DNA from: Christensenella timonensis
Lineage (GTDB): Bacteria > Bacillota > Clostridia > Christensenellales > Christensenellaceae
Assembly (NCBI RefSeq): GCF_900087015.1
Contig: NZ_FLKP01000001.1
Location: forward strand, 186,001 to 250,000
Length of the DNA stretch: 64,000 nt
Direction of reading: 5' to 3'
Position numbers and translations under genes: made by a program. Positions 9,113 through 41,669 of the stretch are shown here, in pieces (position 1 is the first letter of the stretch; the number at the start of each line of letters is the position of its first letter). The notes beneath the pieces are model-generated. The model was not told the DNA's origin and ran no database searches. It saw nothing but the letters and a program-made list of their open reading frames with translations.

Positions 9113-10315
9113 TTACTTCATGAGGGAAGCAATGTCGTCCGGGAGCGGCTGGTTATAGATCGCCGTCCAGGATTCAGCCAATGTTTCCTGCGTTACATTG
9201 ACCGGGTCGATCAGCACCATCTTCGGTACGCTTTCGCCGACCGCGTCAAGCGCGCCTGCGATCATGCAGTTATAACCCACGCTGTACGGCTGCTGTGCGC
9301 CGATGCCTTTGACCATGCCGCCTTCCGCCATGATCCTTGCCACGTTGTATCCGAGGTCAACGCAGGTCACGACGAAATCGTCGCCAAGTCCCACACTCTT
9401 CGCAGAGGAGATCACGCCTTCCGCCGGGACGTCCCACTGGGCATACGCGCCGTCAAGGTCAGGATACTTCGCAAAGACACCGTCTGCAAGGGCTGCGCAG
9501 TCTGTCGCTTCCGTGAATCCCTCCTGTGTCACGATCTCGATATCCGGGAAGTTCTTTTCGATATAATCGCGGAAGCCCTGGTCGCGCGCTTTGTTGCCGA
9601 GGTTGGGTGCCGTCCAGCTGAACATCGCGATCTTTCCCTTGCCGCCAAGCTGCTGCGCCATGTCTTTGGCACATTCCATGCCCGCGCCGTAGGTGTTCGT
9701 TGTAACCAGGCTGGCATAATCGTCTTCACCGAGGTTGGAATTGATGTTATCAAAATAAACCATGGATACACCGCTTGCCGCCGCGTCCTTTTCCTGTTGT
9801 GTCATCGCTTCCACATCCACCTGCATGATAATGACGATATCAGGATTCAATGCCAGCACGCTCTCAAGGTCGGTCGCCTGCTGTTCTGCCTTCCAGTCGC
9901 AGTTGGTCTGCGCTACGATCTCGATACCCAGTTCCCCTGCCGCCTTCGTTGCGCCGTCGATCACTGCCGCAGAATAAGATTCGCCCGTCGTATGCATGAC
10001 AAGCGCCGCTGTCAGCTTGCCTTCTTTGATCTTTGCCGCCTGCTCGTCCGTCAGTTTGAAATCGTTTACGCTGACCGGCTCCACCCCGTCAAAACGCACC
10101 ACCCATTCGTTTGGCGTTTCCATATCCGGCAGGTCGATACTTGCCCCCTCTGCCGCCGGTGCGGATGCTTCCGTGGTTTTTGTGGCCGCTGCCGATGATT
10201 CCGCCGGGGCGGACGACTGCGCCGGTGCAGACGACTCTGCCGGTGTGGACGCACACCCTGCAAAGCATGTCACTGCGAGCAACACTGCCAAAATGAGTCC
10301 TACTGTCTTTTTCAT
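9113..10315 (-). CDS. Sugar ABC transporter substrate-binding lipoprotein (SBP1)
   Basis: A 400-residue protein with a lipoprotein signal ending in the lipobox FAGC, so it is anchored at the outer face of the membrane. A low-complexity Ser/Ala/Pro/Glu/Thr linker follows (about residues 25-60), then a type I periplasmic-binding fold of the RbsB/sugar-sensing kind (ALVMHTTG, NPDIVIIMQVD, YFDNINSN). GGAGGAAG lies upstream of the ATG. It is the last gene of the GRE1 operon, behind the permease, and should deliver the GRE1 substrate or its precursor. The ligand is unknown; pentoses, polyols and similar small sugars are typical for the family. Confidence 0.88.
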   Translation of the reverse strand: MKKTVGLILAVLLAVTCFAGCASTPAESSAPAQSSAPAESSAAATKTTEASAPAAEGASIDLPDMETPNEWVVRFDGVEPVSVNDFKLTDEQAAKIKEGKLTAALVMHTTGESYSAAVIDGATKAAGELGIEIVAQTNCDWKAEQQATDLESVLALNPDIVIIMQVDVEAMTQQEKDAAASGVSMVYFDNINSNLGEDDYASLVTTNTYGAGMECAKDMAQQLGGKGKIAMFSWTAPNLGNKARDQGFRDYIEKNFPDIEIVTQEGFTEATDCAALADGVFAKYPDLDGAYAQWDVPAEGVISSAKSVGLGDDFVVTCVDLGYNVARIMAEGGMVKGIGAQQPYSVGYNCMIAGALDAVGESVPKMVLIDPVNVTQETLAESWTAIYNQPLPDDIASLMK

Positions 10316-10385
10316 TTTCTTCCTCCTGTTTTTCCTTATTTATATCAACCCCCGGCCTTACGCAGCCGGATGGATCGATCCATGC

Positions 10386-11357
10386 TTATTCTTTGCCTTT
10401 GCGCAGTGAGCTGATCGTTCCCAGCGCGGTCGCCGCAATCACGACGATACCCCGGATGATCATTTGCTGCGAAGCGGACATGCCCGCAATGACCAGGCCG
10501 TTGTCGATCATCGCCATCATCCATGCGCCGACAAAGGTTCCCACGATCGTCGCCACGCCGCCGTTCATGCTTGTGCCGCCCAGCACCACCGCTGCGATGA
10601 CGTTCATTTCCGCGCCGTCGCCGTATACGTAGTTCGCCGCCTCCAGCCTTGCCGAGTAAAGGATACCTGCAAAGCTTGAAAAAAGTCCGCTTAGGAGCAT
10701 GACCTTCAGCTTAATGTCCTTGACGTTCACGCCCGAATACCGCGCCGCCTGTTCGTTTCCGCCCACGGCCAGTACCTTTGGCCCGAACGGTATTTTCTTC
10801 AATAATATGAATGCGATGATAAGGCAGACGATACACCAGATGATCATGACCGGGATGCCGAATACCGTGCCGTTCCCAAACACTTCCGAATAGGTTTTGT
10901 CATAAATGGGGATGGACTGCGAATTCGCCACCCACATGGAAAGGCCTTTTAAAATTGTCATCGTACCAATGGTGATCAAAAATGAAGGAAGCCCGGTCCC
11001 CACAAGGATCCCGCCGTTTATAAGGCCGATGAGCGCCCCTGTCCCCAATGCAGCCAGGACTGCCACAAACGCGTTTCCGCCGCTTTGCATCACGAGCGCC
11101 GCCACAATGCCCGACATAGCGACGTTCGCGCCCACTGTAAGGTCGATCTGCCCGCAACCGATCACGAACACCATGCCAAAGCACATGATACCGATCGTAC
11201 TCATCTGCCGGAGGATGTTCACCTGGTTGATCGGTTTTAAGAATCCCGTATCCCCGAGCAAGATCGTAAAGACCAGGAATGCCACCACGATCGCGATATA
11301 CACGATCCCTTTTTGTAAATCAAACTTCTTCCATAAACTTTTACTGCTGGACTGCAT
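10386..11357 (-). CDS. Sugar ABC transporter permease, RbsC family
   Basis: A 323-residue membrane protein with the BPD_transp_2 layout: about ten helices, the conserved GQIDLTVGANVAMSG loop and the late GGTSMNGG motif contacting the ATPase. It forms the membrane channel, presumably as a homodimer, since the operon has only one permease gene. Its start overlaps the ATPase stop by 17 bases, showing translational coupling. It lies between ATPase and binding protein, as in rbs operons. Confidence 0.9.
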   Translation of the reverse strand: MQSSSKSLWKKFDLQKGIVYIAIVVAFLVFTILLGDTGFLKPINQVNILRQMSTIGIMCFGMVFVIGCGQIDLTVGANVAMSGIVAALVMQSGGNAFVAVLAALGTGALIGLINGGILVGTGLPSFLITIGTMTILKGLSMWVANSQSIPIYDKTYSEVFGNGTVFGIPVMIIWCIVCLIIAFILLKKIPFGPKVLAVGGNEQAARYSGVNVKDIKLKVMLLSGLFSSFAGILYSARLEAANYVYGDGAEMNVIAAVVLGGTSMNGGVATIVGTFVGAWMMAMIDNGLVIAGMSASQQMIIRGIVVIAATALGTISSLRKGKE

Positions 11358-12837
11358 TTTGCAAAACCTCCTCTGTCCCTATTTCTTCATGCCTTAACTC
11401 ATTGATGATCCTGCCTTTTTTCAGGATATAGATCCTGTCGCATACCGCCATCAATTCCTGCAGTTCCGACGAAACAAAAATCGCCCCATTCCCCTCGTTG
11501 GTAAATTTGCGTATCGTTGCAATCAATTCTTTTTTGGAACTGATATCCACGCCTGCCGTCGGTTCATCCAAAAGCATGATCTTCATATCCGAGCGCAGCC
11601 ACTTGGAAACGACGATCTTCTGTTGGTTCCCGCCGGATAAAAGCCGTATCATCTGGTCGATCGAATCCGTTTTGACCGCAAGTTCGTCGATACTGTATTT
11701 GGTCGCCTGTTCCATCTTTTTCTGGTCCAGGAACGGTCCCTTTTTCATTTTTCCCAAAACGGGAAGCGTCAGGTTGTCCTTTACCGAGTGCATAAGCACC
11801 AGGCCCTGCGTACGCCTGTCCTCCGGTACGAGGCCGAACCCTGCCCGAATGGCGTCCTGCACGGACTTGACGGATGTTTGCGCCCCCTGTACGGTGACCT
11901 TTCCCCCCTGCGCCCTGCGGATGCCGAAAAGCGTTTCCAATATTTCCGTACGGCCGCTGCTCAAAAGCCCGGCAAAGCCGATCACCTCGCCCTTGTGCAG
12001 CCGGAATGAGATATCCCTGATCCAACCGTCTACCTGCAGGCCAGCTACCTCCAAAAGCGTTTCATCAAAGGTATCCTGAAGCGGCGGATGCCATTCAAAA
12101 GACGTACTGTTTTCTTCGCCCATCATGTGCGTGATCATTTTCTCGATGGATAATTCCCGGCCATTAAGCTCCGCTACGATCTGTCCGTCGCGCAAAATGG
12201 TCACGCTGTCTGCGATAGACATGATCTCGTTCATGCGGTGCGAGATATAGATGATGCCAATCCCTTGCTGCTTTAAGTTCTCAATGATACGGAACAGGTT
12301 TTCTACTTCCTTGGTGGAAAGCGAAGCGGTTGGCTCGTCCATGACGAGGATGCGTGCATCCCCGGAAAGCGCCTTTACGATCTCTACCATCTGCCGTTCC
12401 CCAACGGTCAGCTTCCCAAGCGTCGTATCCGGGTCGATATCCACACCCAGCAGCTCAAGGAGCTTAAGCGCACGTTTGCGCATGTCCGCTTTGTCGAGGA
12501 TACATTTGTGCTTCAACACCTCGTTGTTCAGGAAAATATTTTCTGTGACGGTCAGCGTCAGTACGCTGCTCATCTCCTGGAAAATCATGGCGATCCCATG
12601 TTTGAAGGCGTCTTTGTAACTTTTGAAATCCACTTCTTCCCCACAGAACGTCATGCTGCCATCGTCGCGTGTATATACGCCTGTGAGTATCTTCATCAGC
12701 GTACTCTTACCCGCGCCGTTCCCTCCGACCAATGCATGTACCTTGCCCGCATAAACATCAAAATTCACATTTTTCAAGACCTCATTCCCAAAAAAGCTTT
12801 TCGTGATGTTCTCAAGCTTCATAATGCATTTTTCCAT
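11341..12837 (-). CDS. Sugar ABC transporter ATP-binding protein, RbsA/MglA family
   Basis: A 498-residue double ATPase. The first nucleotide-binding domain has Walker A GGNGAGKST, signature LTVGERQM and Walker B ILVMDEPTA. The second, degenerate in Walker A as usual for this family, has LLSGGNQQK and MLLDEPTAGVD. It powers import by the adjacent permease. ATG at 12837 follows GGAGGG at the right spacing, so the alternative TTG at 12855 is rejected. A hairpin GGGACG/CGTCCC in the 110-base gap before it may stabilise or process the mRNA. Confidence 0.92.
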   Translation of the reverse strand: MEKCIMKLENITKSFFGNEVLKNVNFDVYAGKVHALVGGNGAGKSTLMKILTGVYTRDDGSMTFCGEEVDFKSYKDAFKHGIAMIFQEMSSVLTLTVTENIFLNNEVLKHKCILDKADMRKRALKLLELLGVDIDPDTTLGKLTVGERQMVEIVKALSGDARILVMDEPTASLSTKEVENLFRIIENLKQQGIGIIYISHRMNEIMSIADSVTILRDGQIVAELNGRELSIEKMITHMMGEENSTSFEWHPPLQDTFDETLLEVAGLQVDGWIRDISFRLHKGEVIGFAGLLSSGRTEILETLFGIRRAQGGKVTVQGAQTSVKSVQDAIRAGFGLVPEDRRTQGLVLMHSVKDNLTLPVLGKMKKGPFLDQKKMEQATKYSIDELAVKTDSIDQMIRLLSGGNQQKIVVSKWLRSDMKIMLLDEPTAGVDISSKKELIATIRKFTNEGNGAIFVSSELQELMAVCDRIYILKKGRIINELRHEEIGTEEVLQNAVQQ

Positions 12838-12947
12838 ATTTGCAGTTCCCTCCAATGCTCCAAAATTTTATAAAAACGGTACACAAACCCGGGGGACGTT
12901 TCCCGTCCCTCTTTTCCTGTATCCTGTTGTGCCGTAAAATGTATCGC

Positions 12948-13850
12948 TTATCCGCCCACCACGCACACAAGGCCCGCTTCCCGTACCTGCTGTGCGAGCG
13001 GCTCGACCTCCTTGCGGTCAAGCGTCCCGATATCTGCCAGCGCATATTCCATGTCGAGCGCCTGGTATTTATAACTGCCCAGTTGGTGGAAAGGCAGCAA
13101 GTCGATCCGCCCAATATCATTTTCCTGCGCCAGCGCGACCACCTGTCCGATGAATTCGCGCGACTGGTTGAAGCCCGGGATGACCGGGCAGCGCAGCCGG
13201 ACTTTTTTCCCTTTTTTCCGCAGCCTCTTCAAATTTTCCAATATATGTCCCAGCGGATAACCGGAGAACGTGCTGAATTGCATTTCATCCAGCGTCTTAA
13301 TATCGAACAATACCTCCCCTGCATATTCAAGAGCCCACCAGAACTGCTCCCACGGAGCCGCACCGCACGTTTCCACCGCAGTGTCGATGAACTCCGTGCC
13401 GCACCGCCTGATGCACTCCCGTACGAAATCCGGCTGCATCGTCGCTTCCCCGCCTGAGAAGGTGGCGCCGCCCTCGGAACGGACGTAATATTCGCTATCC
13501 TTTTGTATCTCGGCCATTACCTCGTCCACCGTCATATCCTGCCCGAACAGTGTCCGTGCATCGTAAAAACATTTGCTTACGCATGCCCCGCAGTTTATGC
13601 ACAAAGCCCTGTCCGTGACGACCTCGCCGCCCGCCGCAGATATCGCCCCCTGCGGGCAGGCCGGGATGCACCGTCCGCATTGCAGGCACTTGTGCTTGCT
13701 GAACGCCAGCTGGTTCTGCATCGATTGGGATTCCGGGTTGCAGCACCACGGACAGCTTAGGGGACAGCCCTTCAAAAAAATGATGGTGCGTATCCCCAGC
13801 CCGTCGTGCATGTGGTAGCGTTCTATATTGTAGATTTTTCCTTTTATCAT
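12948..13850 (-). CDS. Glycyl radical enzyme activating enzyme (AE1), partner of GRE1
   Basis: A 300-residue radical SAM protein. Cys29-x3-Cys33-x2-Cys36 binds the SAM cluster. Two ferredoxin-like motifs, CLQCGRCIPAC and CINCGACVSKC, bind two more [4Fe-4S] clusters, as in eliminase activases but not in the short PFL activase. It uses SAM and an electron to abstract hydrogen from the active glycine of its partner. It begins 14 bases after GRE1, which identifies its target. GGGGAGCAGG precedes the ATG. Confidence 0.92.
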   Translation of the reverse strand: MIKGKIYNIERYHMHDGLGIRTIIFLKGCPLSCPWCCNPESQSMQNQLAFSKHKCLQCGRCIPACPQGAISAAGGEVVTDRALCINCGACVSKCFYDARTLFGQDMTVDEVMAEIQKDSEYYVRSEGGATFSGGEATMQPDFVRECIRRCGTEFIDTAVETCGAAPWEQFWWALEYAGEVLFDIKTLDEMQFSTFSGYPLGHILENLKRLRKKGKKVRLRCPVIPGFNQSREFIGQVVALAQENDIGRIDLLPFHQLGSYKYQALDMEYALADIGTLDRKEVEPLAQQVREAGLVCVVGG

Positions 13851-13864: not shown

Positions 13865-16339
13865 TCAGATCGTGTGGACGGTCCGCGCGATGATGTCGTC
13901 CTGCAATGCTTCGTCAATGGCCGTAAACAGGGCGCTGTATCCCGCAACGCGCACCATCAGGTCTTTGTACTTTTCCGGATTTTCCTTGGCTTCTTTGAGT
14001 ACCTTCGTGTCGATCATATTGAACTGGATGTGCTGCCCTTTGAAATCACCTAAATAGGTGCGCAGCATGGCGATGAACCGTTCCCGCGCTTCCGGCGTTT
14101 CGATCGTCTTGGGGTCGACGCGCATGTTGTAAAGCGTCCCGCCGGAAAGCAGCAGGTTGGGTATCTTACCCACCGACTTTAAGGCCGCCGTGGGCCCGTT
14201 GATATCTGTCCCGTGCATGGGGGAGGTCGTGTCCGCAAGCGGTTCCCCGCTCTTCCGCCCGTCGGGCGTCGCACCGACGATCTCTCCTAAGGGCACGTTG
14301 GAGGAAACCGTGTTCGCCGAAGGCACCCATACGCCGCCAATGGGGCCGCGCCCATAGCGCGTGGTATGGTATTTGACTTCCTCTTCAAATACGAAGTTTA
14401 AATAGTCGCTCATGATGCCGTCCACATAATCGTCGTCATTTCCATATTTGGGCGCTTTCAGCAGCATCTGCCGGATCTCTTCGCCGCTGGGCGTGGTGGC
14501 CATATCCCCAAAGTTCGTCTTGAGCGCATGCATCAGTTCTTTTCCGCTGACCACCCGGTCGTCAAACACCAGCTTTTTGACTGCCGCAAGGGAATTGCCC
14601 GTATTTGCAACGCCCATGTAGAGCGGGCCGCAGAAATCATAGACCGCGCCGCCCTCCTTGACCGTCTTGCCCCGCTCGATGCAGTCGTCGATCAGCATGG
14701 ACATCAGCGGATCGGCAATTCCAAACTCCGTCGCCAAGTCGAGCGTATTGTCATAGATCACGTGCTGGCGGATATAGTAGCGCATTTGCTCCTTGAACGC
14801 TTCATACAGCTCGTCATAGCTTTTGAAGGTCGTAAGGTCGCCGCTTCCCTTGTGCGGGCACTTGCCTGTCCGCGGGTCTGTCCCGCCGTTCATCGCCAGC
14901 TCCAGCGCTTTTGTCATGTTGACGAATGCCGCTCCGTCCGGGCGGTTGCTCTGCTTGCCCTCGATAAGCGGTTCGCCGCAGCCCACGCACGAATAGTCGT
15001 ATGCATCCTGTAGGGATACCCCGCGGTTCACCAGCGCTAAGATATAGTTCTCATCGCTGTAATAGGCTGGTTGTCCGCCGCCCAGTTTATTGACGTCCAG
15101 TATAGCGTTCATGTAACGGTTTGAAGCCCGGTCGTGGTACCTTGCCGACATCGGGTTATTGAGCTGCATGATGGCCTGGCATTCCAAAATCAGGTAGGTC
15201 ATCTCATTGGTCGCGTCGCGCCCAAAACGGTCCTGCCCGCCGATCGTCATGTTCTGCGCCACTACATAGCCGCGGAACGACGCCGTACTCTGCCAATCGA
15301 GCACACGCGTGATCTGGAACATCTTGAGCATCATATTGGAAAACAGCTCCTTGATCCCGTCCTCGCCCACGCCGTCTTTTATTGCCTTTTGGTAGTAGGG
15401 GTAAAGCTTCTGATCCACCCGCCCGAATGAAAATGCGCTGCCGTTCCCTTCGATATTAAGCACAAGGTTGGTAAAAAACATCGACTGGATCGCTTCGTGG
15501 ATATCACGCGCCGGCTCCATCGGTACATGGGCGCAGACGTCTGCGATCTTAAGCAGCTCCTGTTTGCGCTGCCCATCCGTTTCTTTGTCCGCCAGTTCCC
15601 GTGCCAGCGCAGCATAGCGCCCCGCAAACAGCTCGATGCTGTCGCAGTTTAATAGCACCGACTGCAAAAACGGCAGTTTGTTTAGGTCGTCTACGACAGA
15701 AAGGTCAAGCGCCCCGATCGCCTTTTCCGCCCGCTTGCGGAAATTTTTGATCCCTTCCCGCAGCACCCTTTCCAAATTGACCGTGACATGCCCTTCCGCA
15801 CAGATGATCAGGTAGTCCGTATCGATCATGCCGATCTCATACGCTTCCCACGCCTCTGCCGGTATCCTTGCAAGCACATGGTCTTTGTGCGTCTTGCCCT
15901 TCCAGTAGGGCGCGATCTCGCGGATCACCTTTTCGTCTTCCGGTTTGATGATAAATTTATCCCCCGGGCGTTTCTCAAAGCGGTATGGTTTGCCGTCAAG
16001 CTCCTCGATGAACCAATCGATCGCATAATCGGGGTAGACCTGTGCACAGCGGTCGCGCGTGCCGATCTCTCCCACGATCAGCTCCCCGTCCAGGATACGG
16101 ATATCCAGGTTTTCCAGTACATTCCTAAGCGCCTTTGCCCTCCGTAATACGACAGGTTCGCCCTCCGTCTGCATATAGCTTTGCGTAACGAGCCGCGCGC
16201 GCGACGATTCAATCTGTGGTACCGCTTCAAAGATCCTGCTGCGCAGCTTGTCGAGCCGTGCGCTGCGATAAACGGTACGCCCTTCAAATACCGCTCCCGT
16301 ATCCACCGGTTTTGTTCCTTTAACATCGTTATACTGCAT
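13865..16339 (-). CDS. Glycyl radical enzyme GRE1 (PFL-like C-O/C-X lyase family, substrate unknown)
   Basis: An 824-residue enzyme with the PFL domain, thiyl Cys454 in YSCVGCGEP with partner Glu456, and the glycyl radical motif RVAGYSA with Gly800 near the C-terminus. The Cys-x-Glu-Pro arrangement marks the eliminase/dehydratase branch and excludes true pyruvate formate-lyase, which uses two adjacent cysteines. Glycerol dehydratase has His-Ser in the loop before FGR(F)D; here the loop reads GNGSAFSFGR, so that His-Ser pair is lost. The Asp after the catalytic loop appears as PDGAA. GGAGGG precedes the ATG. It is the first gene of an operon with its activase and a sugar ABC importer. The substrate is probably a small polyol or sugar, but it cannot be named. 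Confidence 0.9.
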   Translation of the reverse strand: MQYNDVKGTKPVDTGAVFEGRTVYRSARLDKLRSRIFEAVPQIESSRARLVTQSYMQTEGEPVVLRRAKALRNVLENLDIRILDGELIVGEIGTRDRCAQVYPDYAIDWFIEELDGKPYRFEKRPGDKFIIKPEDEKVIREIAPYWKGKTHKDHVLARIPAEAWEAYEIGMIDTDYLIICAEGHVTVNLERVLREGIKNFRKRAEKAIGALDLSVVDDLNKLPFLQSVLLNCDSIELFAGRYAALARELADKETDGQRKQELLKIADVCAHVPMEPARDIHEAIQSMFFTNLVLNIEGNGSAFSFGRVDQKLYPYYQKAIKDGVGEDGIKELFSNMMLKMFQITRVLDWQSTASFRGYVVAQNMTIGGQDRFGRDATNEMTYLILECQAIMQLNNPMSARYHDRASNRYMNAILDVNKLGGGQPAYYSDENYILALVNRGVSLQDAYDYSCVGCGEPLIEGKQSNRPDGAAFVNMTKALELAMNGGTDPRTGKCPHKGSGDLTTFKSYDELYEAFKEQMRYYIRQHVIYDNTLDLATEFGIADPLMSMLIDDCIERGKTVKEGGAVYDFCGPLYMGVANTGNSLAAVKKLVFDDRVVSGKELMHALKTNFGDMATTPSGEEIRQMLLKAPKYGNDDDYVDGIMSDYLNFVFEEEVKYHTTRYGRGPIGGVWVPSANTVSSNVPLGEIVGATPDGRKSGEPLADTTSPMHGTDINGPTAALKSVGKIPNLLLSGGTLYNMRVDPKTIETPEARERFIAMLRTYLGDFKGQHIQFNMIDTKVLKEAKENPEKYKDLMVRVAGYSALFTAIDEALQDDIIARTVHTI

Positions 16340-16493: not shown

Positions 16494-16516
16494 AAAAAAA
16501 ACGCCTGGCAGGCGCT
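16494..16516 (-). promoter_or_regulatory. Terminator-like hairpin in the GRE1 leader (possible attenuator)
   Basis: On the minus strand GCGCC TGCCA GGCGT is followed by seven T residues, about 60 bases downstream of the predicted transcription start and 155 bases before the GRE1 start codon. The stem is only five pairs, so read-through is expected. Confidence 0.4.
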
Positions 16517-16575
16517 GAATAGTCAAGATATCGATTGAACGGGAAATTAAACTATATGATGCAAGCTTTATAAAA

Positions 16576-16604
16576 ATAATAGTCCCTTTTTAAAAAATTG
16601 TCAA
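16576..16604 (-). promoter_or_regulatory. Sigma-A promoter of the GRE1 operon
   Basis: On the minus strand a perfect TTGACA (16604-16599), a 17-base spacer and TATTAT (16581-16576). It opens a 230-base leader before GRE1. Apart from this promoter, the leader hairpin and a terminator, the gap 16340-16696 shows no gene. Confidence 0.75.
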
Positions 16605-16696: not shown

Positions 16697-17236
16697 TTAT
16701 GCCGTTTTTGCCTTGAGTTCCCTGTCAAACTGCCACCCCGTCTTTTTCAGCAGCAGAACCAAAACCGGAATCACGACGATCTGGATGATAATACCCGGCA
16801 GCGCGACCACAAACGAATTGGTCAGGAATATTTCAAAGCTGTATGGCGTGCCCGCCATACCAAGCAGGATCGTGTTCAATATCCCCGATACGACCCGTCC
16901 CGCGAGCATTGCGCCAATGAGCGCCAGATACACGTTCACCCTGCGGTACAAAAGCCCGCTGACGATGCCGTATACGCACAGCTCGAACATCATGACCAGC
17001 CCCACCGGGTAAAGCGGCGGCATCCCCGTCGCAAAGGACGATAAGAGCGGCAGTATAAAACCGCAGATCCCGCCGTATTTCCAGCCGCAGATCAGCCCGC
17101 ACACCAGCACCGGGATGTGCATGGGCAGGAATACCTGTCCCGCTGCCGCCCCAAACGCGTGGAACACCATGGGCAGCAAAAGCCCTGCCGCAAGGCACAG
17201 CGCCGCCGCTACCAACTTCTTTGTTTCATTCTTCAT
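16697..17236 (-). CDS. ECF transporter S component (substrate-binding membrane subunit)
   Basis: A 179-residue protein with about five or six membrane helices and the layout of S components: basic N-terminus, AALCLAAGLLLPMVFHAFG first helix, MHIPVLVCGLICG in helix 2, and a short positive tail. S components capture a vitamin or nucleobase-like solute and dock on a shared EcfAA'T energising module, which is not in this window. It is 28 bases behind a P-loop kinase gene and ends the transcript. A kinase that traps the imported compound is a common arrangement, but the solute is unknown. Confidence 0.75.
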   Translation of the reverse strand: MKNETKKLVAAALCLAAGLLLPMVFHAFGAAAGQVFLPMHIPVLVCGLICGWKYGGICGFILPLLSSFATGMPPLYPVGLVMMFELCVYGIVSGLLYRRVNVYLALIGAMLAGRVVSGILNTILLGMAGTPYSFEIFLTNSFVVALPGIIIQIVVIPVLVLLLKKTGWQFDRELKAKTA

Positions 17237-18353: not shown

Positions 18354-18369
18354 TTGTCTTTGCTCCAAC

Positions 18370-18421
18370 AAAAAAGCCATGAATCGTTTGTTTTCTTTCC
18401 AGAAAACGCTAACTCTTCATG
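18370..18421 (-). terminator. Attenuator-type terminator directly before the kinase gene
   Basis: On the minus strand CATGAA ... GTTTTC ... GAAAAC ... TTCATG forms a long interrupted hairpin followed by CTTTTTT. The T-run ends only a few bases before the kinase ribosome site, so it lies inside the transcription unit and would control entry into the kinase and ECF genes. Confidence 0.6.
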
Positions 18422-18517: not shown

Positions 18518-18931
18518 TCAAGACCTGTTATTCAATTGCTTGATCGTTTCCACCGCCTCGGCGATGTGTGCCGAAAGCGCGTGATCCTTAAGCCCCATAA
18601 TATTGATATGGCACCGTGAAACGGGAATGGCGATTTTTTCCGCCCCGCATGTCGCCAGCGCTTCCGCCATCCGCGGCGTGACCTCGCCGAGCATCGCGTT
18701 TGCAAAAAACACGCCGATCGGCCCGATCACTACATCGGCACGCGCACAATTGTAGAGCACAGCGTTCTCGCCTGTCGCCCCCTGCGCCTGCCCGCCCTTT
18801 AGCATATTCGCGGTCGCTGTGGCGTTCGTCCCCACCACGACCAGCTCAACCTCGGGCAGCTCTGCGCGCAGCCGTTCGACGATACTTCTTCCCATACCGC
18901 CGCCCTGCCCGTCTATTACCACTACCAGCAT
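18518..18931 (-). CDS. DUF3842 family protein
   Basis: A 137-residue soluble protein opening with VVVIDGQGGGMGRSIVERL, a Rossmann-like glycine-rich loop, followed by VVGTNATATANMLKGG and GATGENAVLYN. Together these identify DUF3842, which has no known function. A nucleotide-binding role is inferred only from the loop. The ATG at 18931 has AGGAT six bases upstream and is preferred to the in-frame TTG at 18937. A TATAAT box at 18961-18966 on the minus strand may start this transcript. It precedes the structured leader, kinase and ECF S component and probably belongs with them. Confidence 0.8.
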   Translation of the reverse strand: MLVVVIDGQGGGMGRSIVERLRAELPEVELVVVGTNATATANMLKGGQAQGATGENAVLYNCARADVVIGPIGVFFANAMLGEVTPRMAEALATCGAEKIAIPVSRCHINIMGLKDHALSAHIAEAVETIKQLNNRS

Positions 18932-18995
18932 AAGCAAATCCTGTCTTTCATTATGTTGGTATTATACCATAAAGCTATCCGCGCCGCCAGCTTTT

Positions 18996-34592: not shown

Positions 34593-34640
34593 GATAAAGT
34601 CTCCTTTTTTGTAGAAATCCCATCCTACACAGAGAGTTTT

Positions 34641-34689
34641 AGGGGATTGCTGCGGCTGCAGCACATAAGCACTGCAGCCGCTCACCCCT
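34641..34689 (-). other. Strong hairpin between binding-protein gene and GRE4
   Basis: A perfect 10-bp stem GCGGCTGCAG/CTGCAGCCGC (34652-34661 with 34672-34681), with an outer AGGGG/CCCCT pairing. There is no T-run on the minus strand, so it is more likely an mRNA processing or stabilising element behind the highly expressed binding-protein gene than a full terminator. Confidence 0.6.
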
Positions 34690-34722: not shown

Positions 34723-35862
34723 TTAATACATTGCCGTACGTGTGTCAACGTTCTCCGCTGTCGCCTGTTCCGTGCCGAGGTTGATCTTCTGCGGGATATC
34801 CTTGCCCATCAGGCTTGCGATTGCTGCCTGGCAAGCATAGTCGCCGTTGTTCATGTAGATCTGTGTCAGCTCCATTTTACCAGCTTTGATCGCGTCAAAC
34901 GCTGTCTGCTGGTAGTCGCCTGCGGAGTATACGAGGATGTCTTCGCCAGGTACTTTACCTGCTTTTTCGATCGCTTCGATCGCGCCCAGTGCCATCTCGT
35001 CGTTGTGCGCATAAACCGCTTTTACGTCAGGATTTGCCTGCAGTGCGTTCGTTACTGTATCGATCGCGTTGTTCCTCAGCCAGTTACAATCCTGGTCAGC
35101 AACGATCTCGATGCCCGGGTTTGCTGCAAATACTTCTTCAGCGCCGCCTTTTCTGCCTGTCGTGCAGGAAGAACCGGACGTACCTTCAAGCTGGATGATT
35201 TTGCCTTCGCCGCCAATATCTTCTACGATCTTTTCAGCAGCCATTGTCCCTAACTGCCAGTCGTCTGTGGACATCCATGTGAGATAGGTCCAATCGTCGA
35301 ACGGCTTGCCGCCATCGATCAGGACTACCGGGATACCAGCGTCAGCAGCCTGCTGCAGAGCGGGCGAGATCGCGATGCCACCGTGGGAGCTGATGACGAT
35401 CGCATCGACCTTCTGCGCGATCAGGCTTTCGATGTTGGACACTTCTTTGGAAGGCTCGCCTTCCCCGTCCATCATAACCATCTTAACGCCGTTTTCGTCG
35501 CACCATTTCTGTGCCCTGTCAACCATGTCCAGTCTGTACGGATGGTCCATGACGCACTGTGCGAAACCGATCGTGTAGTTGCCAGCCTTGACTTCGTCTG
35601 CATTCAGGCCAAAATCGATGGGTGTCGTGTCAGCCGGCAGTCCCGACCATTCGCTTGAAACGTCGCCGGAAGCAGCCGCAGCCGATGCCGACTCAGACGG
35701 AGCCTGCGAAGCCTCCTGTGTTTCCGCGGGAGCCTGTGAAGCTTCCTGCGTAGCAGCAGCTGATGCTGATTCAGAAGCGGCCGGCTCCGCCGGCGCGCTG
35801 CAACCCACTGCCATAGCAGCGACGAGCAATACAGCTACCAAGATCATAATCCCTTTTTTCAT
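34723..35862 (-). CDS. Sugar ABC transporter substrate-binding lipoprotein (SBP2)
   Basis: A 379-residue protein with a lipoprotein signal and lipobox VGCS, a Ser/Ala/Glu/Gln/Pro-rich linker to about residue 70, then a RbsB-type fold (IGFAQCVMDHPYRLDMVDRA, DAIVISSHGG, VVLIDGG, HNDEMALGAIEAIE). AGGAGGG lies before the ATG. It captures the sugar or polyol for the two-permease transporter just upstream and is placed directly before GRE4, suggesting that GRE4 acts on the imported compound or its derivative. Confidence 0.88.
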   Translation of the reverse strand: MKKGIMILVAVLLVAAMAVGCSAPAEPAASESASAAATQEASQAPAETQEASQAPSESASAAAASGDVSSEWSGLPADTTPIDFGLNADEVKAGNYTIGFAQCVMDHPYRLDMVDRAQKWCDENGVKMVMMDGEGEPSKEVSNIESLIAQKVDAIVISSHGGIAISPALQQAADAGIPVVLIDGGKPFDDWTYLTWMSTDDWQLGTMAAEKIVEDIGGEGKIIQLEGTSGSSCTTGRKGGAEEVFAANPGIEIVADQDCNWLRNNAIDTVTNALQANPDVKAVYAHNDEMALGAIEAIEKAGKVPGEDILVYSAGDYQQTAFDAIKAGKMELTQIYMNNGDYACQAAIASLMGKDIPQKINLGTEQATAENVDTRTAMY

Positions 35863-35921
35863 TGTTTTCCCTCCTGTTTTTTCTTCTTTATTCAGGCTTT
35901 CGCCTGTAGAAAACCTAATTT

Positions 35922-36896
35922 TTAAAGTCTTTCCATGGCGTGCTTTCTCGCCGCCTTTTCGTTGACGTACTGCGTGATCACCGGTACCAGTACCGATACG
36001 AACACGATCAGTCCTTCCACGACCTTTTGCAGGTACATGTTGACGTTCGCAACATTGAGCAGGTTGCTGATGACGCCGAGCGCCAATACGCCGAACATTG
36101 TTCCCAGTGCGCTCCCGCGTCCGCCGTCCATGGACGTACCGCCCATAACGACTGCCGCGATTGCCAGCATTTCATATCCTTCGCCCGATCTCGGTTCGCC
36201 GATCTTCAGCTTGCTGCACAGCAGCGCGCCGCAGATGCCTGCAAGTGCACCGGTGATCGTATATGCTATGAAACGTACTTTCTTTACGTTGATCCCTGTA
36301 TATTTGGCCGCTTCTTCATTTCCGCCCGCCGCGATCAGGTCGCGTCCATATTTTGTCCGCGTCAGCAGGATATGGATGAGGATGATCGCGATGATCCATA
36401 TGAACATGGGCAGGAAGAACGGCCCGATCTTCGTATTGCTGATCACGCTGAACGATTCCGGGATGCCCGAACTGACGGGACGTCCGCTGTTGATGAGAAG
36501 TGCCGCTGCGCGGCCGCCCATCATCGTTACCAGCGTTGCAACGAAGGGCTGTAAATGCCCTTTGGTAACGAGCAGGCCGTTGCCTGCGCCAAGGGCGGCG
36601 CATACTGCCACTGCGAGCAATACGGAACCCATGGTCGGGAAGCCTGCATATGCCTGCGTCATGGCCGCTACCATGCAGCCGAGTGCGACGTTGGAACCGA
36701 CCGAAAGGTCTACGCCGCCGCCGCCGCCGATGATGACCAGCGTCATACCTGCGGCAAGCAATCCGTTCTGTGCTGTCTGTTGCAGGATGTCCGCAACGTT
36801 GTTCAGCGTAAAGAACGATGGGGAAACGAATATTCCAAGCACGAACACGAAGATGAACACGATCATGCCGGGATAGTTTTTCACTAAGCTCTTCAT
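35922..36896 (-). CDS. Sugar ABC transporter permease A, RbsC family
   Basis: A 324-residue permease of the BPD_transp_2 family with GGVDLSVGSNVALG and GGTSMDGGRGS. It pairs with the other permease at 38403-39443 to form a heterodimeric channel. ATG at 36896 is set by GGAGG and starts one base after the ATPase stop. An upstream in-frame ATG would overlap the ATPase without its own ribosome site. Confidence 0.9.
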   Translation of the reverse strand: MKSLVKNYPGMIVFIFVFVLGIFVSPSFFTLNNVADILQQTAQNGLLAAGMTLVIIGGGGGVDLSVGSNVALGCMVAAMTQAYAGFPTMGSVLLAVAVCAALGAGNGLLVTKGHLQPFVATLVTMMGGRAAALLINSGRPVSSGIPESFSVISNTKIGPFFLPMFIWIIAIILIHILLTRTKYGRDLIAAGGNEEAAKYTGINVKKVRFIAYTITGALAGICGALLCSKLKIGEPRSGEGYEMLAIAAVVMGGTSMDGGRGSALGTMFGVLALGVISNLLNVANVNMYLQKVVEGLIVFVSVLVPVITQYVNEKAARKHAMERL

Positions 36897-36897
36897 G

Positions 36898-38400
36898 TTA
36901 AACCTCCACTCCTGCAGCGTTCGCAAGGATACGTTCTTCATCAAATTCATCGCGGTTGATTTCCGCTAAGAAACGTCCCTTGCGCATGATGTAAAGCCTG
37001 TCGCTCATTCCGAGCACTTCTGTCAGCTCGGAAGATACGATGATGATCGAATCCCCGCCCCTGCGGAGTTCTTCCAGCGCCTCATACACCTGCATCTTTG
37101 CTTCTACGTCGATGCCGCGTGTCGGTTCAAAACAGATGAAGATATTGGATTCGCGTCCCAGCCATTTTGCAATAACGACTTTCTGCTGGTTACCGCCCGA
37201 TAAGTTGTTGACGAGGACGTTCTGCGACGGCGTCTTGATACTCAGTTTATCGATCAGTGCCTTGACCGTCTTCTTTTCCTTTTTCCCGTCGACCAATTTG
37301 ATCGGACTTGAAAGCCTGTCGATAAACGGAATGGAAACATTTTCTTTTACGCTTAAGCGCAGCATCAGTCCGTCGTGCTTTCTTTCTTCCGGGATATATG
37401 CAAGCCCGTGGTTGACTGCGTCCACCGGGGTATTGATCTTGACCGGCTTCCCATTGATCTCATAACCTTCGATTTGCATATCCTTGGTGTCCACGCCGAA
37501 AAGCGCTTCCGCGAATTCCCGCTGTCCGCTGCCCACTACGCCGTAGATGCCCAGCATCTCGCCCTTGCGGAGCTTAAAGGAGATATCCTTTAACCTGTAG
37601 TTGTTCAGCTTGTCGACCTTCATGACGATCTCGTCCGTCTTTTTGTACTGCAGCTCTGGGAACATGTTATCCATGCTGCGCCCGATCATCATACGGATCA
37701 GCTCTGCCGAATCGAGACCTTCCATCGTCCGTGTCGCGATGTGTACGCCGTCCTTTAAGACCGTGACTGTGTCCGCGATCTCGAATACTTCCTCCAACCT
37801 GTGGGAAATATAGACGACGGTGATTCCGCTTGCCTTGATGGAACGGATGATCTCGAACAAGCTCTTGATTTCCGTCTGCGTCAAAACCGCGGACGGCTCA
37901 TCTAAAAGCAATACCTTCGTATCGATGGAAAGCGCCTTTGCGATCTCGACCATCTGCTTTTCTGCTACCGTCAGGTTTTCCACCGTTTCCGTCGGGTCGA
38001 TATCCAGATTGAGACTGTCCAATAATTCCTTTGCCAGCCTTTTGGCTTCCTTGTAGCTGATCAGCTTGTTCTTCAGCGGCATATGCCCCATGAAGATATT
38101 TTCTGCCACCGTCAGTCCCGGAACCAGCGAAAGCTCTTGGAACACCATGCTGATGCCCGCGTGCCTGCTCTCTAAAACCGTATCAAAGTGCATTTCCTGG
38201 CCGTCGACGAACACCTGGCCCGCATCCGCCTTGTATACGCCCGTAATGATTTTCAGGAGTGTGCTTTTGCCCGACCCGTTCATGCCGAGAAGCGCGTGTA
38301 CCTCTCCTTTTTTCAGCGACATACTTACGTCGTCAAGGGCTTTTACGCCGGGAAATTCTTTTGTAATGTTTTTGACTTCCAATACAATGTTGTTTTCCAT
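36898..38400 (-). CDS. Sugar ABC transporter ATP-binding protein, RbsA/MglA family
   Basis: A 500-residue double ATPase: Walker A GMNGSGKST, LTVAEKQM signature and VLLLDEPSAVL in the first domain; NNLSGGNQQK and ICFEPTRGID in the second, where the Walker B Asp-Glu pair reads Phe-Glu, as is tolerated in the inactive site of this family. ATG at 38400 is chosen over GTG 38406 because GAGGG is spaced for the ATG. It lies between the two permease genes, two bases after the first. Confidence 0.92.
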   Translation of the reverse strand: MENNIVLEVKNITKEFPGVKALDDVSMSLKKGEVHALLGMNGSGKSTLLKIITGVYKADAGQVFVDGQEMHFDTVLESRHAGISMVFQELSLVPGLTVAENIFMGHMPLKNKLISYKEAKRLAKELLDSLNLDIDPTETVENLTVAEKQMVEIAKALSIDTKVLLLDEPSAVLTQTEIKSLFEIIRSIKASGITVVYISHRLEEVFEIADTVTVLKDGVHIATRTMEGLDSAELIRMMIGRSMDNMFPELQYKKTDEIVMKVDKLNNYRLKDISFKLRKGEMLGIYGVVGSGQREFAEALFGVDTKDMQIEGYEINGKPVKINTPVDAVNHGLAYIPEERKHDGLMLRLSVKENVSIPFIDRLSSPIKLVDGKKEKKTVKALIDKLSIKTPSQNVLVNNLSGGNQQKVVIAKWLGRESNIFICFEPTRGIDVEAKMQVYEALEELRRGGDSIIIVSSELTEVLGMSDRLYIMRKGRFLAEINRDEFDEERILANAAGVEV

Positions 38401-38402
38401 GC

Positions 38403-39443
38403 TCACACCCTCTTTTCCATATTCGCCAGCTGACGCTGCTGGATCAATACGACTACCATGATGAGCAGTGCGGTAATGACCTGCTGGATATAAGAGTTGA
38501 TATTCAGCTGTGTCAACAGGTTTTTGATCAATGTAATGAACAACAGCCCCATGACTGTCCCAATGACCGTTCCCTGTCCGCCTGCCATCGGCGTACCGCC
38601 GATCAGCACCGCGCTGATTGCGTCGAGCTCATACCCGTTGCCTGCATATGGGTCTGCAGACATCGTGAAAGATGTGAACAGCATCCCTGCCACCGCTGCG
38701 CAAACGCCGGAGATGATATATGTGGAAATCTGTATTTTCTTTGTTTTGACGCCTGATATAGACGCGGCATTGATGTTTGCGCCCACCGCGAACAGCTTAC
38801 GTCCATAGGCGCTCCTGTGCAGTACGAAGTAGGATACCACAACCACGGCTGCAAAAATAATGATGGTATAGGGCAGTATGTCGCCGATAAATCCGCTCGC
38901 TACATTTTTGAAATCCTCGCGAACCCCTACGAACTGGAACCCGTTGCTGTAAACGAGCACGATCCCGCGCCCGATATTGAGCATTGCGAGCGTCATGATG
39001 AACGGCGACAGCTTTAACTGTGCCACGCCAAGCCCGTTGATCAGCCCCATGATCACGCCGGCTGCCGCGCATGCCAGCAAGATCAGGATTACCGGTGCTT
39101 CTACGCCCGGGTACGGTGCTCCGCCCGTATTCTGTACTTCCGTATATTGCATACTGATGGATATCATTGCCGCGATCCCGAAGGTGGAACCGATCGATAA
39201 GTCGATCCCTCCGTTGCCGCCGATGATGACGTATGTCATGCCGACTGCCATCAACCCCATGATGCCCATCTGCCGCATCAACCTGGATAAGTTAAACGCA
39301 TCCACAAAGCTGTCTGTCACAATCGCGCCGATGATCAAGATGGCGATCACGGCGAGAACCAGGAAAAATGTATTTCCCTTGAGCACACTTGATTTGGATG
39401 TTTTATCCGCCAGCGGCACTCTCTCCACTTTACTTGTATTCAT
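38403..39443 (-). CDS. Sugar ABC transporter permease B, RbsC family
   Basis: A 346-residue permease with a basic N-terminal tail and the GGNGGIDLSIGSTFG and GGTPMAGGQG motifs. It is similar to, but not a copy of, the permease at 35922-36896; two-permease systems of this family are known for autoinducer-2, rhamnose and ribose-like solutes. ATG at 39443 follows AGGAAGG. It is the first transporter gene after the GRE4 activase. Confidence 0.9.
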   Translation of the reverse strand: MNTSKVERVPLADKTSKSSVLKGNTFFLVLAVIAILIIGAIVTDSFVDAFNLSRLMRQMGIMGLMAVGMTYVIIGGNGGIDLSIGSTFGIAAMISISMQYTEVQNTGGAPYPGVEAPVILILLACAAAGVIMGLINGLGVAQLKLSPFIMTLAMLNIGRGIVLVYSNGFQFVGVREDFKNVASGFIGDILPYTIIIFAAVVVVSYFVLHRSAYGRKLFAVGANINAASISGVKTKKIQISTYIISGVCAAVAGMLFTSFTMSADPYAGNGYELDAISAVLIGGTPMAGGQGTVIGTVMGLLFITLIKNLLTQLNINSYIQQVITALLIMVVVLIQQRQLANMEKRV

Positions 39444-39524
39444 AAATCCAACCTTCCTGTCAAACAATTATTTGTCTGAGACTAACGATCAAACAATTCT
39501 TCACTTTTCTGGTCCGCCCCGGGC

Positions 39525-40442
39525 CTATCCGCCGATCTGAACGCTTTCCACATATTGCATGGCAGCCGCCCTGAGCGCTTGCATTGCGTCATCTTCCGGT
39601 TTTTTTACGTCATGCATGCTGTATTCCATCCCAAGCGCAATATATTTGCTCTCTCCTAAGTTATGGTATGGCAGCAAGTGCATTTCCCGTATCCCGATGC
39701 CGGAGATAAATTTTGCAATGTCTTTGATCTCTTTTTCTGTGTCATTAAAACCGGGAATCACAGGTATCCTGCAAATAATATGCTTTTTGTTCTTCGCCGC
39801 CCATTCCCAGTTTTTTAAAATCGCCTCGTTGGATCCTCCCGTCCATTCCTTGTGCTTTTCATTGTCCGTGTGTTTCAGATCCATCAGAAGCAAGTCTACA
39901 TACTTCAACACTTCCCGAAATACCTCCGGCGCACAGACGCCGCAGGTCTCTATCGCTGTATGAATCCCCCTTTCCTGTGCAGATTTTAAGAGCTTGAGCA
40001 AAAATTCATGTTGACTAAGCGGTTCCCCACCGCTGACTGTTAGCCCTCCTCCTGAAGTAATATAGAAAATTTCATCTTTTGTAATTTCATCAATGATCTC
40101 CTGCACGCTCATTTCGCGTCCCGCGATCTTTAACCCCTGCGCCCTGCAGTTTGCGATGCACGCGCCGCAGTAATCGCATTTTTCCTTGCGGTACGCAATG
40201 CCGTCCGCTCCTACGCTGATCGCGTCCTTATCACATACCGCCTGGCAGGTTCCGCAGGCGATACATTTTTTATGGGATATCATCATTTCCCGTTCTTTTT
40301 TCTGGGATTCCGGATTGGCGCACCACCGGCACCGCAGCGGGCATCCCTTCAAAAAAACGATTGTGCGTATCCCGCTCCCATCGTGAATCGAATACCGCTG
40401 CAGGTCGAATACTGTTCCTTTGATTTCTTCGCTTTGATACAA
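39525..40442 (-). CDS. Glycyl radical enzyme activating enzyme (AE4), probable partner of GRE4
   Basis: A 305-residue radical SAM activase with Cys34-x3-Cys38-x2-Cys41 and ferredoxin motifs CIACGTCQAVC and CDYCGACIANC, then GGGLTVSGGEPL. It starts at a TTG with GGAGG eight bases upstream. It is the only activase not adjacent to a GRE. The other three GREs each have their own, so GRE4, five kilobases downstream in the same run, is its likely target. Confidence 0.9.
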   Translation of the reverse strand: MYQSEEIKGTVFDLQRYSIHDGSGIRTIVFLKGCPLRCRWCANPESQKKEREMMISHKKCIACGTCQAVCDKDAISVGADGIAYRKEKCDYCGACIANCRAQGLKIAGREMSVQEIIDEITKDEIFYITSGGGLTVSGGEPLSQHEFLLKLLKSAQERGIHTAIETCGVCAPEVFREVLKYVDLLLMDLKHTDNEKHKEWTGGSNEAILKNWEWAAKNKKHIICRIPVIPGFNDTEKEIKDIAKFISGIGIREMHLLPYHNLGESKYIALGMEYSMHDVKKPEDDAMQALRAAAMQYVESVQIGG

Positions 40443-40475
40443 TGGCCTGTCCTCCGCAATATTTTTTCGTCCATA

Positions 40476-41669
40476 TCAGGTCGTATTTGCAATTTTCCCT
40501 GGTTCTTTTCCGCTTTCCTTCTTGCGCGGCCTGTAAAATACCGCTTGTATCAAAACAATGCTTCCCAGTAGTACAGCCGGCAAAAGCAGTGAAAGTCGTG
40601 AGCCTGCCGCTTCCCCGATCACCCCCATCAGGTAGGGAGCAACGGACATTCCCACGCCGCCTGATGCAAAGGCGATCGCAAATACCGTTCCTGTGGAGTC
40701 CTTTATGTCCTCCGTCCCGTGTGCCAGGATCATGGGGTACTGCGCCGAATAGAAGATTCCGATCAGGATGATCGATATCCATACCATCGGTTCGCTTGTC
40801 GCCATAGCTACCATAAGAGTCGCCGGGATGGAAAGGGCCGCCAGTACGATCGCGATCTTGCGCGCGCTCCATTTGGAGGCTGCAAAGGATAATACCGTAC
40901 GCGAGAGGATCATCATCCCCCAGAAAAGCCCCACCGTCAGGTTGGACTGTAAAACATCAAAATGCATAGTCTCCTTGGTGAAGGTCGACATCCATCCCCA
41001 TACGCCTACTTCCGCGCCCGTATAACAGAACAGGCAGATACACGTCATCAGGAAGTATTTGTTTTTAAGCAGGCTTTTGACGCTCTTCAGGGAAATCGAG
41101 TCGCTTTTTTCCGCCTGCGGCATTTTTACCAGTAAAAAAAGTATTGCGACCGCCGCGTAAAGGGCGCCTGTTCCAATATAGATGCTTCTCCACGAAACGC
41201 CGTTTGAAAGCGCATATCCTGTAATCAGCGGCATCGCCAGGGCCCCCACCCCGAAAATAACCTGGATAAAATTGATGTGGAACGTCCTCTTTGCCGGATT
41301 CAGATCTGCCGCCATAGAGGTCGACATGCTTTCCATGATGCCCGTGCCCCCGCCAATAAAGAACAGGAGCGCCAGTACGCCTTCAAAGCTTTGCACTGCG
41401 GCGAACAGGAAAAGCAAAACGCAATTTGCGCATACCGCGACGCTAAGCACCGCTTTTTTGCTCACCTTGTCGGCAATGATTCCTCCCATGATCGTGAAAA
41501 TCGTGAAGCCGATGAACTGAAACGCCATCAGCATTCCCATTTGTATGGTTGTAAGCGAGAATTCCTTTCCGATCTCGTCTAGCATTGGGCTAATGATAAC
41601 AAGCACAGCCGCGCAGGCAAACATCAAAGAATATACCGATACGATCGTTACCTTTTTGTTGTCAATCAC
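40476..41669 (-). CDS. MFS transporter, sugar-type
   Basis: A 397-residue, 12-helix major facilitator protein. NFIQVIFGVGALAMPLITGY and FCYTGAEVGVWGW resemble FucP-like sugar porters, and GGIIADKVSKK is the loop after helix 2. GTG at 41669 is chosen because GAGGGG lies five bases before it; the upstream TTG lacks a site. It is the first gene of the 22-kb run. It probably brings in a second substrate or exports a product; the solute cannot be named. Confidence 0.78.
   Translation of the reverse strand: MIDNKKVTIVSVYSLMFACAAVLVIISPMLDEIGKEFSLTTIQMGMLMAFQFIGFTIFTIMGGIIADKVSKKAVLSVAVCANCVLLFLFAAVQSFEGVLALLFFIGGGTGIMESMSTSMAADLNPAKRTFHINFIQVIFGVGALAMPLITGYALSNGVSWRSIYIGTGALYAAVAILFLLVKMPQAEKSDSISLKSVKSLLKNKYFLMTCICLFCYTGAEVGVWGWMSTFTKETMHFDVLQSNLTVGLFWGMMILSRTVLSFAASKWSARKIAIVLAALSIPATLMVAMATSEPMVWISIILIGIFYSAQYPMILAHGTEDIKDSTGTVFAIAFASGGVGMSVAPYLMGVIGEAAGSRLSLLLPAVLLGSIVLIQAVFYRPRKKESGKEPGKIANTT

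Follow-up and report, generated by a model that had tools for sequence, protein, structure and literature searches.

Here we describe a block of genes for four glycyl radical enzymes (GREs) and their activases in a 64,000-nucleotide window of the Christensenella timonensis genome (contig NZ_FLKP01000001.1, positions 186,001 to 250,000); all coordinates below are those of the whole window. The block comprises 27 proteins encoded between 9113 and 43123, all of which were scanned against Pfam. It falls into two units, both on the minus strand: an 18-gene run from 41687 to 18996, which contains GRE4, GRE3 and GRE2, and a separate GRE1 unit. A preliminary description of positions 9113 to 41669 had reported two adjacent same-strand units with four GREs, four cluster-binding activases, two RbsABC-type sugar importers, PfkB kinases and aldolases. 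Its gene content is confirmed, including the importers (9113–12855 and 34723–39467) and the kinases (18996 and 29929), except for the plural of the aldolases: a single aldolase gene lies in that range (24561), and a FucA-type one lies outside it. The features are as follows.

4321–5094: FucA-type class II aldolase, outside 9113–41669
9113–10315, minus strand: SBP1, periplasmic sugar-binding protein of the GRE1 unit (Pfam PF13407)
10386–11357, minus strand: RbsC-type permease 1 (PF02653)
11341–12855, minus strand: RbsA-type ATPase 1 (PF00005, two stretches)
12948–13850, minus strand: activase 1, radical S-adenosylmethionine (SAM) protein (TIGR02494 above cut-off; motifs)
13865–16339, minus strand: GRE1 (PFL-like and Gly_radical domains; YbiW superclade; YGRGPI insert)
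16697–17236, minus strand: S component of an energy-coupling factor (ECF) transporter, between the two units (PF12822)
17265–18380, minus strand: 371-aa protein, C-terminal half kinase-like, without Pfam match
18518–18937, minus strand: DUF3842 (PF12953; 58-bp gap)
18996–19979, minus strand: PfkB1 sugar kinase, core gene, 67% identical in UBA5399 (PF00294)
19997–20914, minus strand: activase 2, core gene (NCBIfam; UBA5399 orthologue)
20935–23343, minus strand: GRE2, core gene, 79% in UBA5399, Cys loop CCEP (domains, motifs)
23372–24106, minus strand: LarC1-like protein, corresponding only to the N-terminal part of the nickel insertion protein (PF01969 positions 1–223 of 375, and TIGR00299, both on the longer frame 23372–24277)
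24112–24555, minus strand: DUF1893 (PF08973)
24561–25430, minus strand: class II fructose/tagatose-bisphosphate-type aldolase (PF01116; TIGR00167 above cut-off)
25463–26542, minus strand: Gfo/Idh/MocA oxidoreductase, core gene, 51–63% in three pieces in UBA5399 (PF01408)
26553–27491, minus strand: activase 3, core gene, 62% in UBA5399 (NCBIfam; UBA5399 orthologue)
27494–29908, minus strand: GRE3, core gene, 78 and 85% in two pieces in UBA5399 (domains; inner group with YbiW)
29929–30849, minus strand: PfkB2, ribokinase-type kinase, core gene, 59% in UBA5399 (TIGR02152, 310.6 against a cut-off of 299.65)
30846–32135, minus strand: DUF362 protein with four conserved Cys, core gene, 78% in UBA5399, LarA clan (PF04015)
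32157–34685, minus strand: GRE4, small separate lineage, orthologue and its activase elsewhere in UBA5399 (domains, tree)
34723–35862, minus strand: SBP2, RbsB/YtfQ-like binding protein (profile matches)
35922–36950, minus strand: RbsC-type permease 2a (profile matches)
36898–38406, minus strand: RbsA-type ATPase 2 (profile matches)
38403–39467, minus strand: RbsC-type permease 2b (profile matches)
39525–40442, minus strand: activase 4, probable partner of GRE4 (NCBIfam; orthologues adjacent in UBA5399)
40476–41687, minus strand: major facilitator superfamily (MFS) transporter, first gene of the 18-gene run (PF07690; gaps)
42152–43123, plus strand: SorC/DeoR-type regulator, divergent, core gene, 62% in UBA5399 (PF04198)

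All four GRE genes are complete open frames, each with PFL-like and Gly_radical domains. The glycyl loop reads RVAGYSA in GRE1, GRE3 and GRE4 and KVAGYSA in GRE2, and the cysteine loop reads CGEP (GRE1), CCEP (GRE2), CIEP (GRE3) and CVEP (GRE4). A CxE cysteine loop together with a glycyl loop served as our test for GRE eliminases (CXE is given as the eliminase motif in the available text of PMC7077986), and all four enzymes carry both, as well as the conserved histidine of the GRE eliminases. Each of the four activases (12948, 19997, 26553 and 39525) has a CxxxCxxC radical-SAM motif and two CxxCxxCxxxC ferredoxin motifs. GRE2 also has a second Cys pair (GGCCH) near its CCEP loop; both are kept in the UBA5399 orthologue.

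In the 18-gene run, from the MFS gene (41687) to PfkB1 (18996), intergenic gaps are at most 59 bp, and the run is divergent from the SorC gene at 42152. It is predicted to form one operon and the GRE1 unit (GRE1, activase 1, ATPase, permease and binding protein), which begins 357 bp past the ECF S-component gene, a second. Between them, DUF3842 follows PfkB1 after 58 bp, possibly as a 19th gene of the run; past a further gap of 137 bp come the 371-aa kinase-like protein and the ECF S component. Promoter and terminator scans of the window gave counts near those of shuffled sequence and were not used, so the operon limits rest on spacing and comparison. Ahead of GRE1, at 16500–16604, a promoter-like site (11 of 12 positions) is followed by a terminator-like hairpin, possibly a leader of GRE1, although such sites are no commoner than in the shuffles; a riboswitch at this place was considered and rejected, there being no Rfam match in the window. 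On the far side of the block, a neighbouring run (3129–5893) beside an AraC regulator encodes a ribokinase-like PfkB (50% identical to the UBA5399 PfkB2), the FucA-type aldolase and an Fe-type alcohol dehydrogenase, and is a possible partner route of the block.

We then placed the four enzymes within the GRE superfamily. With 748, 723, 877 and 752 bits, GRE1 to GRE4 all exceed the cut-off (678.2) of TIGR01774, the PFL2/glycerol dehydratase subfamily, and none reaches the cut-off of a substrate-level NCBIfam model; all four score below the CutC, HypD, sulfopropanediol dehydratase, indoleacetate decarboxylase and 4-hydroxyphenylacetate decarboxylase equivalogs. Against the PDB, phmmer gave GRE3 its best score with 6xs4 (740 bits), an entry deposited as formate C-acetyltransferase that closely resembles YbiW in the printed alignments, followed by YbiW itself (728) and glycerol dehydratase (626). 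Isethionate sulfite-lyase (7kq3), compared by PDB scores only, reached 370–455 bits with GRE1–4, against 604–740 for the best PDB chain. The window GREs are 40–42% identical to glycerol dehydratase, and 37–42% to glycerol and propanediol dehydratases overall.

Two trees were built. The first (57 rows) contained 52 of 84 collected GRE-like rows and five references, leaving out 28 genome-scan rows (L075 and later, except L076 and L083), L071–L073 and one partial L052 frame. The second (63 rows) left out nine more because of long branches or near-identity (the host GREs L015 and L016, and L023, L028, L042, L064, L070, L076 and PflB). It holds 14 of the 16 host GREs, with glycerol dehydratase, two propanediol dehydratases, CutC, HypD, PflD, 9rco, YbiW and one row labelled HpfG-like from its neighbours as references; isethionate lyase is in neither tree. 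In the 63-row tree, GRE1, GRE2, GRE3 and three more host GREs group with YbiW with a support of 99 in the Shimodaira–Hasegawa-like approximate likelihood ratio test (SH-aLRT), and GRE3 belongs to an inner 12-row group with YbiW (SH-aLRT 99). The 57-row tree recovers the YbiW group (97/99), with GRE3 as sister of the YbiW orthologues (97/81); L015 and L016 have long branches and an unsure placement there. GRE1 and GRE2 are further from the YbiW orthologue clade than GRE3 in both trees. GRE4 forms a small separate lineage with its UBA5399 orthologue in the 63-row tree. When a GRE of Dethiosulfatibacter aminovorans (L075, 35% identical to GRE4) was added as one extra row, the YbiW group stayed at 99 and L075 joined GRE4 on a long branch (SH-aLRT 98); we therefore do not call GRE4 alone.

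In the 63-row tree, the glycerol, propanediol, choline and hydroxyproline references all stand apart from the window GREs, a result that, with the NCBIfam scores, supports part of the earlier interpretation. Placing the GRE2 group with the glycerol and propanediol dehydratases was rejected by the approximately unbiased (AU) test (p-AU 0.0014), as was the same placement of the GRE4 group (p-AU 0.012); both values are lenient, because the groups were named after scores and trees had been seen. GRE1 and GRE3 have a six-residue insert, YGRGP(I/V), in common with YbiW; glycerol and propanediol dehydratase, 9rco, PflD, GRE2 and GRE4 do not have it. This insert is a marker found in the present analysis, not a published definition. 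GRE2 and GRE3 in turn share the GNQA...FPEY, GDxH and KIR..SH loops with YbiW, to which GRE3 is 44% identical.

Part of the block is conserved in another genus. UBA5399 (G016; locus L065 on contig DHOD01000059.1) keeps nine of its genes in the same order: SorC (62% identity), DUF362 (78%), PfkB2 (59%), GRE3 (78 and 85%, split in two by a run of N), activase 3 (62%), Gfo/Idh (51–63%, three pieces), GRE2 (79%), activase 2 (57 and 75%, two pieces) and PfkB1 (67%). Between activase 3 and Gfo/Idh, UBA5399 has a ribulose-phosphate 3-epimerase family gene that is absent from the window. In the window, MFS, activase 4, the importer and GRE4 separate SorC from DUF362, and Gfo/Idh and GRE2 flank the aldolase, DUF1893 and LarC1. 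Orthologues of GRE4 and activase 4 (72 and 65%) lie next to each other on another UBA5399 contig, which argues that the two form a pair although they are apart in the window, and that the block is composite in origin. Beyond the UBA5399 genome (G016, 71% in that search), GRE4 relatives reach 42% at best among 248 genomes of the order. The GRE1 and activase 1 orthologues (77 and 61%) in a further relative, G005, accompany an AraC regulator, with no RbsABC-type importer gene in the 19.9-kb stretch read. In the same genome, GRE3 (70%) is accompanied by its activase, SorC, ABC ATPases and one gene each for a ribulose-phosphate 3-epimerase family protein, a SIS protein and a cupin; of the nine GREs of this genome, eight were compared and none is a GRE2 orthologue (best 41%). 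Neither a genome-contig scan with two short peptide patterns (44 loci) nor a search of 341 genomes of the class turned up a GRE2 relative above 43% outside C. timonensis and UBA5399.

The block had been read as one dedicated sugar or polyol degradation island without a microcompartment. Whereas the observation behind that interpretation is confirmed, the interpretation itself is partly supported: a sugar role fits the grouping of GRE3 with YbiW, a sugar-phosphate C–O lyase, and no microcompartment gene was found among the 27 block proteins; conservation extends to the nine-gene core with GRE2 and GRE3. A single conserved island of four GREs is ruled out, with the orthologues of GRE4 and GRE1 apart from the core in relatives. 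We also dropped the idea that GRE clusters had recently moved between C. timonensis and G005: the clusters are 88–91% identical at the DNA level, but other stretches of the two genomes are 80–92% alike, and one 97%.

Sugar catabolism by YbiW-type GREs is already known, and the block is a composite variant of that kind. We give about an even chance to the reading that its two putative transcription units serve a radical breakdown of unusual sugars, namely anhydro-sugars or close polyol relatives, without a microcompartment. Here, the SorC protein would sense a sugar phosphate, an RbsABC importer would take up the free sugar, and its phosphorylation would fall to a PfkB kinase (probably PfkB2, which is of the ribokinase type) in place of the phosphotransferase system (PTS) used in Escherichia coli. 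Activase 3 would install the radical on GRE3, whose Cys thiyl radical would abstract a hydrogen next to a C–O bond; with the glutamate of the CxE loop and the conserved histidine, that bond would be broken to leave a deoxy-ketose phosphate, as with YbiW. GRE2, with the Gfo/Idh oxidoreductase and PfkB1, might carry out a second step or, like PflD in E. coli, act on another epimer. A ribulose-phosphate-type epimerase, present near GRE3 in UBA5399 and G005 and fitting a ketose-phosphate product, or the window aldolase could then take the product to triose phosphates. GRE1 and GRE4 may serve further substrates via their own importers.

The model for this chemistry is the E. coli pair YbiW/YbiY, a GRE beside its activase in the same superclade. 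In the available text of a review (PMC12441222), YbiW and PflD open 1,5-anhydroglucitol-6-phosphate and 1,5-anhydromannitol-6-phosphate to 1-deoxyfructose-6-phosphate after phosphorylation by the PTS. A literature search on GREs with anhydroglucitol or 'anhydroglycolysis' returned nothing, and the YbiW/PflD chemistry is cited here through that review. Unlike this PTS-initiated route, the window has an ABC (ATP-binding cassette) importer and PfkB kinases; fsaA adjoins ybiY in E. coli, whereas the window GREs have no neighbouring fructose-6-phosphate aldolase (FSA). (A Vibrio europaeus plasmid, L144, has a YbiW-like GRE and activase next to an annotated fructose-6-phosphate aldolase, which fits the E. 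coli pathway.) PflD/PflC, described in the accessible part of the same source as a second GRE for the epimer, resembles GRE2 and GRE3 in its two-GRE logic, but PflD lies in another clade and has frw PTS genes, fsaB and gldA close by. The B12-independent glycerol dehydratase (1r8w) and the propanediol dehydratases share the GRE eliminase fold, CxE loop and conserved His with the window enzymes, from which they are separated as a clade, and the propanediol-type locus of Citrobacter, by contrast, is a microcompartment operon.

Several observations weigh against this reading of the block. Class II fructose-bisphosphate-type aldolases require a C1 phosphate, so the window aldolase would not cut a 1-deoxyketose, and none of the 27 block proteins is an FSA aldolase or has a TAL/FSA domain (the single TAL/FSA gene of the host is at C2:346896, outside the window). 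The Gfo/Idh protein has distant PDB matches only, the best at 83 bits; a role as 1,5-anhydrofructose reductase was considered and set aside, none of its 12 PDB matches being so named. phmmer ranks glycerol dehydratase as the top PDB match for GRE1, GRE2 and GRE4, and GRE2 lacks the YGRGP(I/V) insert. GRE3 is close to YbiW but outside the clade of its orthologues, the order within the inner 12-row group is unsettled in the 63-row tree, and one strand, which we take to line the pocket, differs between GRE3 and YbiW (GCISYPCTATIS versus GGNYYAGTSSIS). Finally, the kinases could act after the GREs instead of before them.

This last arrangement underlies a somewhat unlikely alternative, in which the GREs remove water from linear polyols such as pentitols and hexitols, or from deoxysugars, in unphosphorylated form, and PfkB then phosphorylates the resulting deoxy-ketose or deoxy-aldehyde for the aldolase. 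RbsABC importers deliver free sugars, which such enzymes would use directly; the CxE motif and the eliminase His occur in every one of the four GREs; and a C1-phosphorylated ketose for the aldolase at 24561 could come from a kinase acting after the GRE. The presence of this aldolase argues for a C1-phosphate product and lends weight to the alternative. Moreover, two host paralogues of GRE1 (L009 and L013) sit with FGGY kinases and ribulose-phosphate 3-epimerase family genes, and for one of these kinases the best-scoring models, though below cut-off, are those of ribulokinase and pentulose kinase. It is the grouping of GRE1, GRE2 and GRE3 with YbiW that speaks for the anhydro-sugar reading instead, the known substrate of YbiW, as far as the review's available text goes, being a phosphorylated cyclic anhydrohexitol.

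The core GRE2/GRE3 pair could serve several substrates or several steps. That GRE3 and GRE2 act in sequence on the same carbon skeleton, joined by Gfo/Idh and the two kinases into one route with two radical steps, seems unlikely. In both genera the pair is accompanied by seven shared partners in one conserved order, and both genomes with close GRE2 relatives also have GRE3. However, G005 has GRE3 with its activase and SorC and lacks a GRE2 orthologue among the eight GREs compared, so GRE3 can work without GRE2, and E. coli, in the portion of PMC12441222 available, runs two GREs in parallel for two epimers.

The conserved DUF362 protein offers a further, more speculative lead. DUF362 and the N-terminal domain of LarA, the nickel-pincer lactate racemase, are placed in one Pfam clan in the available text of PMC11770544, which is also our source for the roles of LarA residues. 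The window protein has no match to PF09861 (Lar_N) up to E 10, so that the kinship is at clan level only, and it carries a C-terminal four-Cys region. Conversely, two proteins, a LarA from G001 and one resembling LarA from G005, show weak DUF362 matches (E 2e-4) just below cut-off. An hhalign comparison of 31 DUF362 rows with LarA gave E 8e-4 at a probability of 24. H186, K196 and H211 are invariant in all 31 rows, and the alignment pairs H186 and K196 (H-x9-K) with the LarA His and cofactor-binding Lys, ten residues apart; H211 follows the Lys by 15 residues, where the equivalent spacing in LarA is 16. Against solved structures the protein had no meaningful match (four at E 0.5–0.8). The LarC1-like gene within the GRE operon is the only PF01969 gene of the host, in whose genome LarA gave no match and neither LarB nor LarE reached the cut-off. 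Two genomes, UBA5399 (91% complete) and G017 (72%), have LarB, LarC and LarE genes and no LarA match, and in UBA5399 this makes DUF362 a candidate user of the cofactor; the three genes lie together at L115 (G016:C3:11984–14964) and L114 (G017:C33). As the family is common (180 of 299 genomes of the phylum), most DUF362 members need not use a nickel-pincer cofactor. We regard it as quite improbable that the core operon encodes a new sugar route that combines two glycyl radical steps with a LarA-clan DUF362 enzyme using a nickel-pincer-like cofactor and its own LarC1.

That all four are divergent members of known GRE families (glycerol, propanediol, choline, hydroxyproline, sulfonate or formate enzymes) would agree with the broad TIGR01774 cut-off and the PDB ranking of GRE1, GRE2 and GRE4, but is contradicted by the substrate-level NCBIfam cut-offs, the identity to glycerol dehydratase and both trees, including the AU tests on GRE2 and GRE4, and is very improbable.

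The window is one of several GRE loci in its host. The genome of the gut anaerobe C. timonensis (2,650,850 bp in two contigs, the larger of 2,314,156 bp) has 16 GREs (PF02901 genes) in nine loci, with 15 activases in the same loci. In a family search of 18 genomes, the five remaining genomes of the genus had 9, 7, 3, 4 and 9 GRE match rows and G016 had 13, about 10 genes once split rows were joined. In a survey of 398 genomes of the phylum, with the best three candidates per genome scored and 160 genomes without a match not listed, the host had a first-look count of 17, and no other listed row exceeded 11 (G610). Sixteen GREs is exceptional within what was sampled, a statement that makes no claim for all bacteria.

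Of the host GREs, 14 of 16 have an RbsA-type ATPase gene within 8.1 kb; measured from the centre, the same holds for 3 of 20 control stretches (20 kb each, hand-picked genome-wide outside GRE loci; Fisher p 2.5e-5 per GRE). Counted by locus, which is fairer because the GREs are clustered, the figures are 7 of 9 against 3 of 20. Christensenella is a human gut genus whose expansion of RbsA/B/C homologues lacks an accepted explanation; the available text of PMC7064737 describes it as unexplained, proposes a role in quorum sensing, and gives 127 homologues for C. minuta and, under D-ribose, a column entry of 91 genes for C. timonensis. The proximity to GREs suggests a testable alternative, in which part of the Rbs transporters feed radical sugar catabolism. 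It cannot explain the whole expansion, because C. massiliensis (G003) has three GREs but, in the text available, 77 such genes. With importers and kinases attached, the four GREs of the window define a narrower assay set for extending GRE chemistry beyond YbiW and PflD. Beside four of the host GRE loci (L029, L030, L034 and L038), a protein of about 180 aa with a start like MTREEARLRALEYFDKAHIYLKEEE is repeated; its L034 copy has no Pfam match at E 1e-5 and no NCBIfam match at E 1e-15, and we take it to resemble D-lyxose isomerase.

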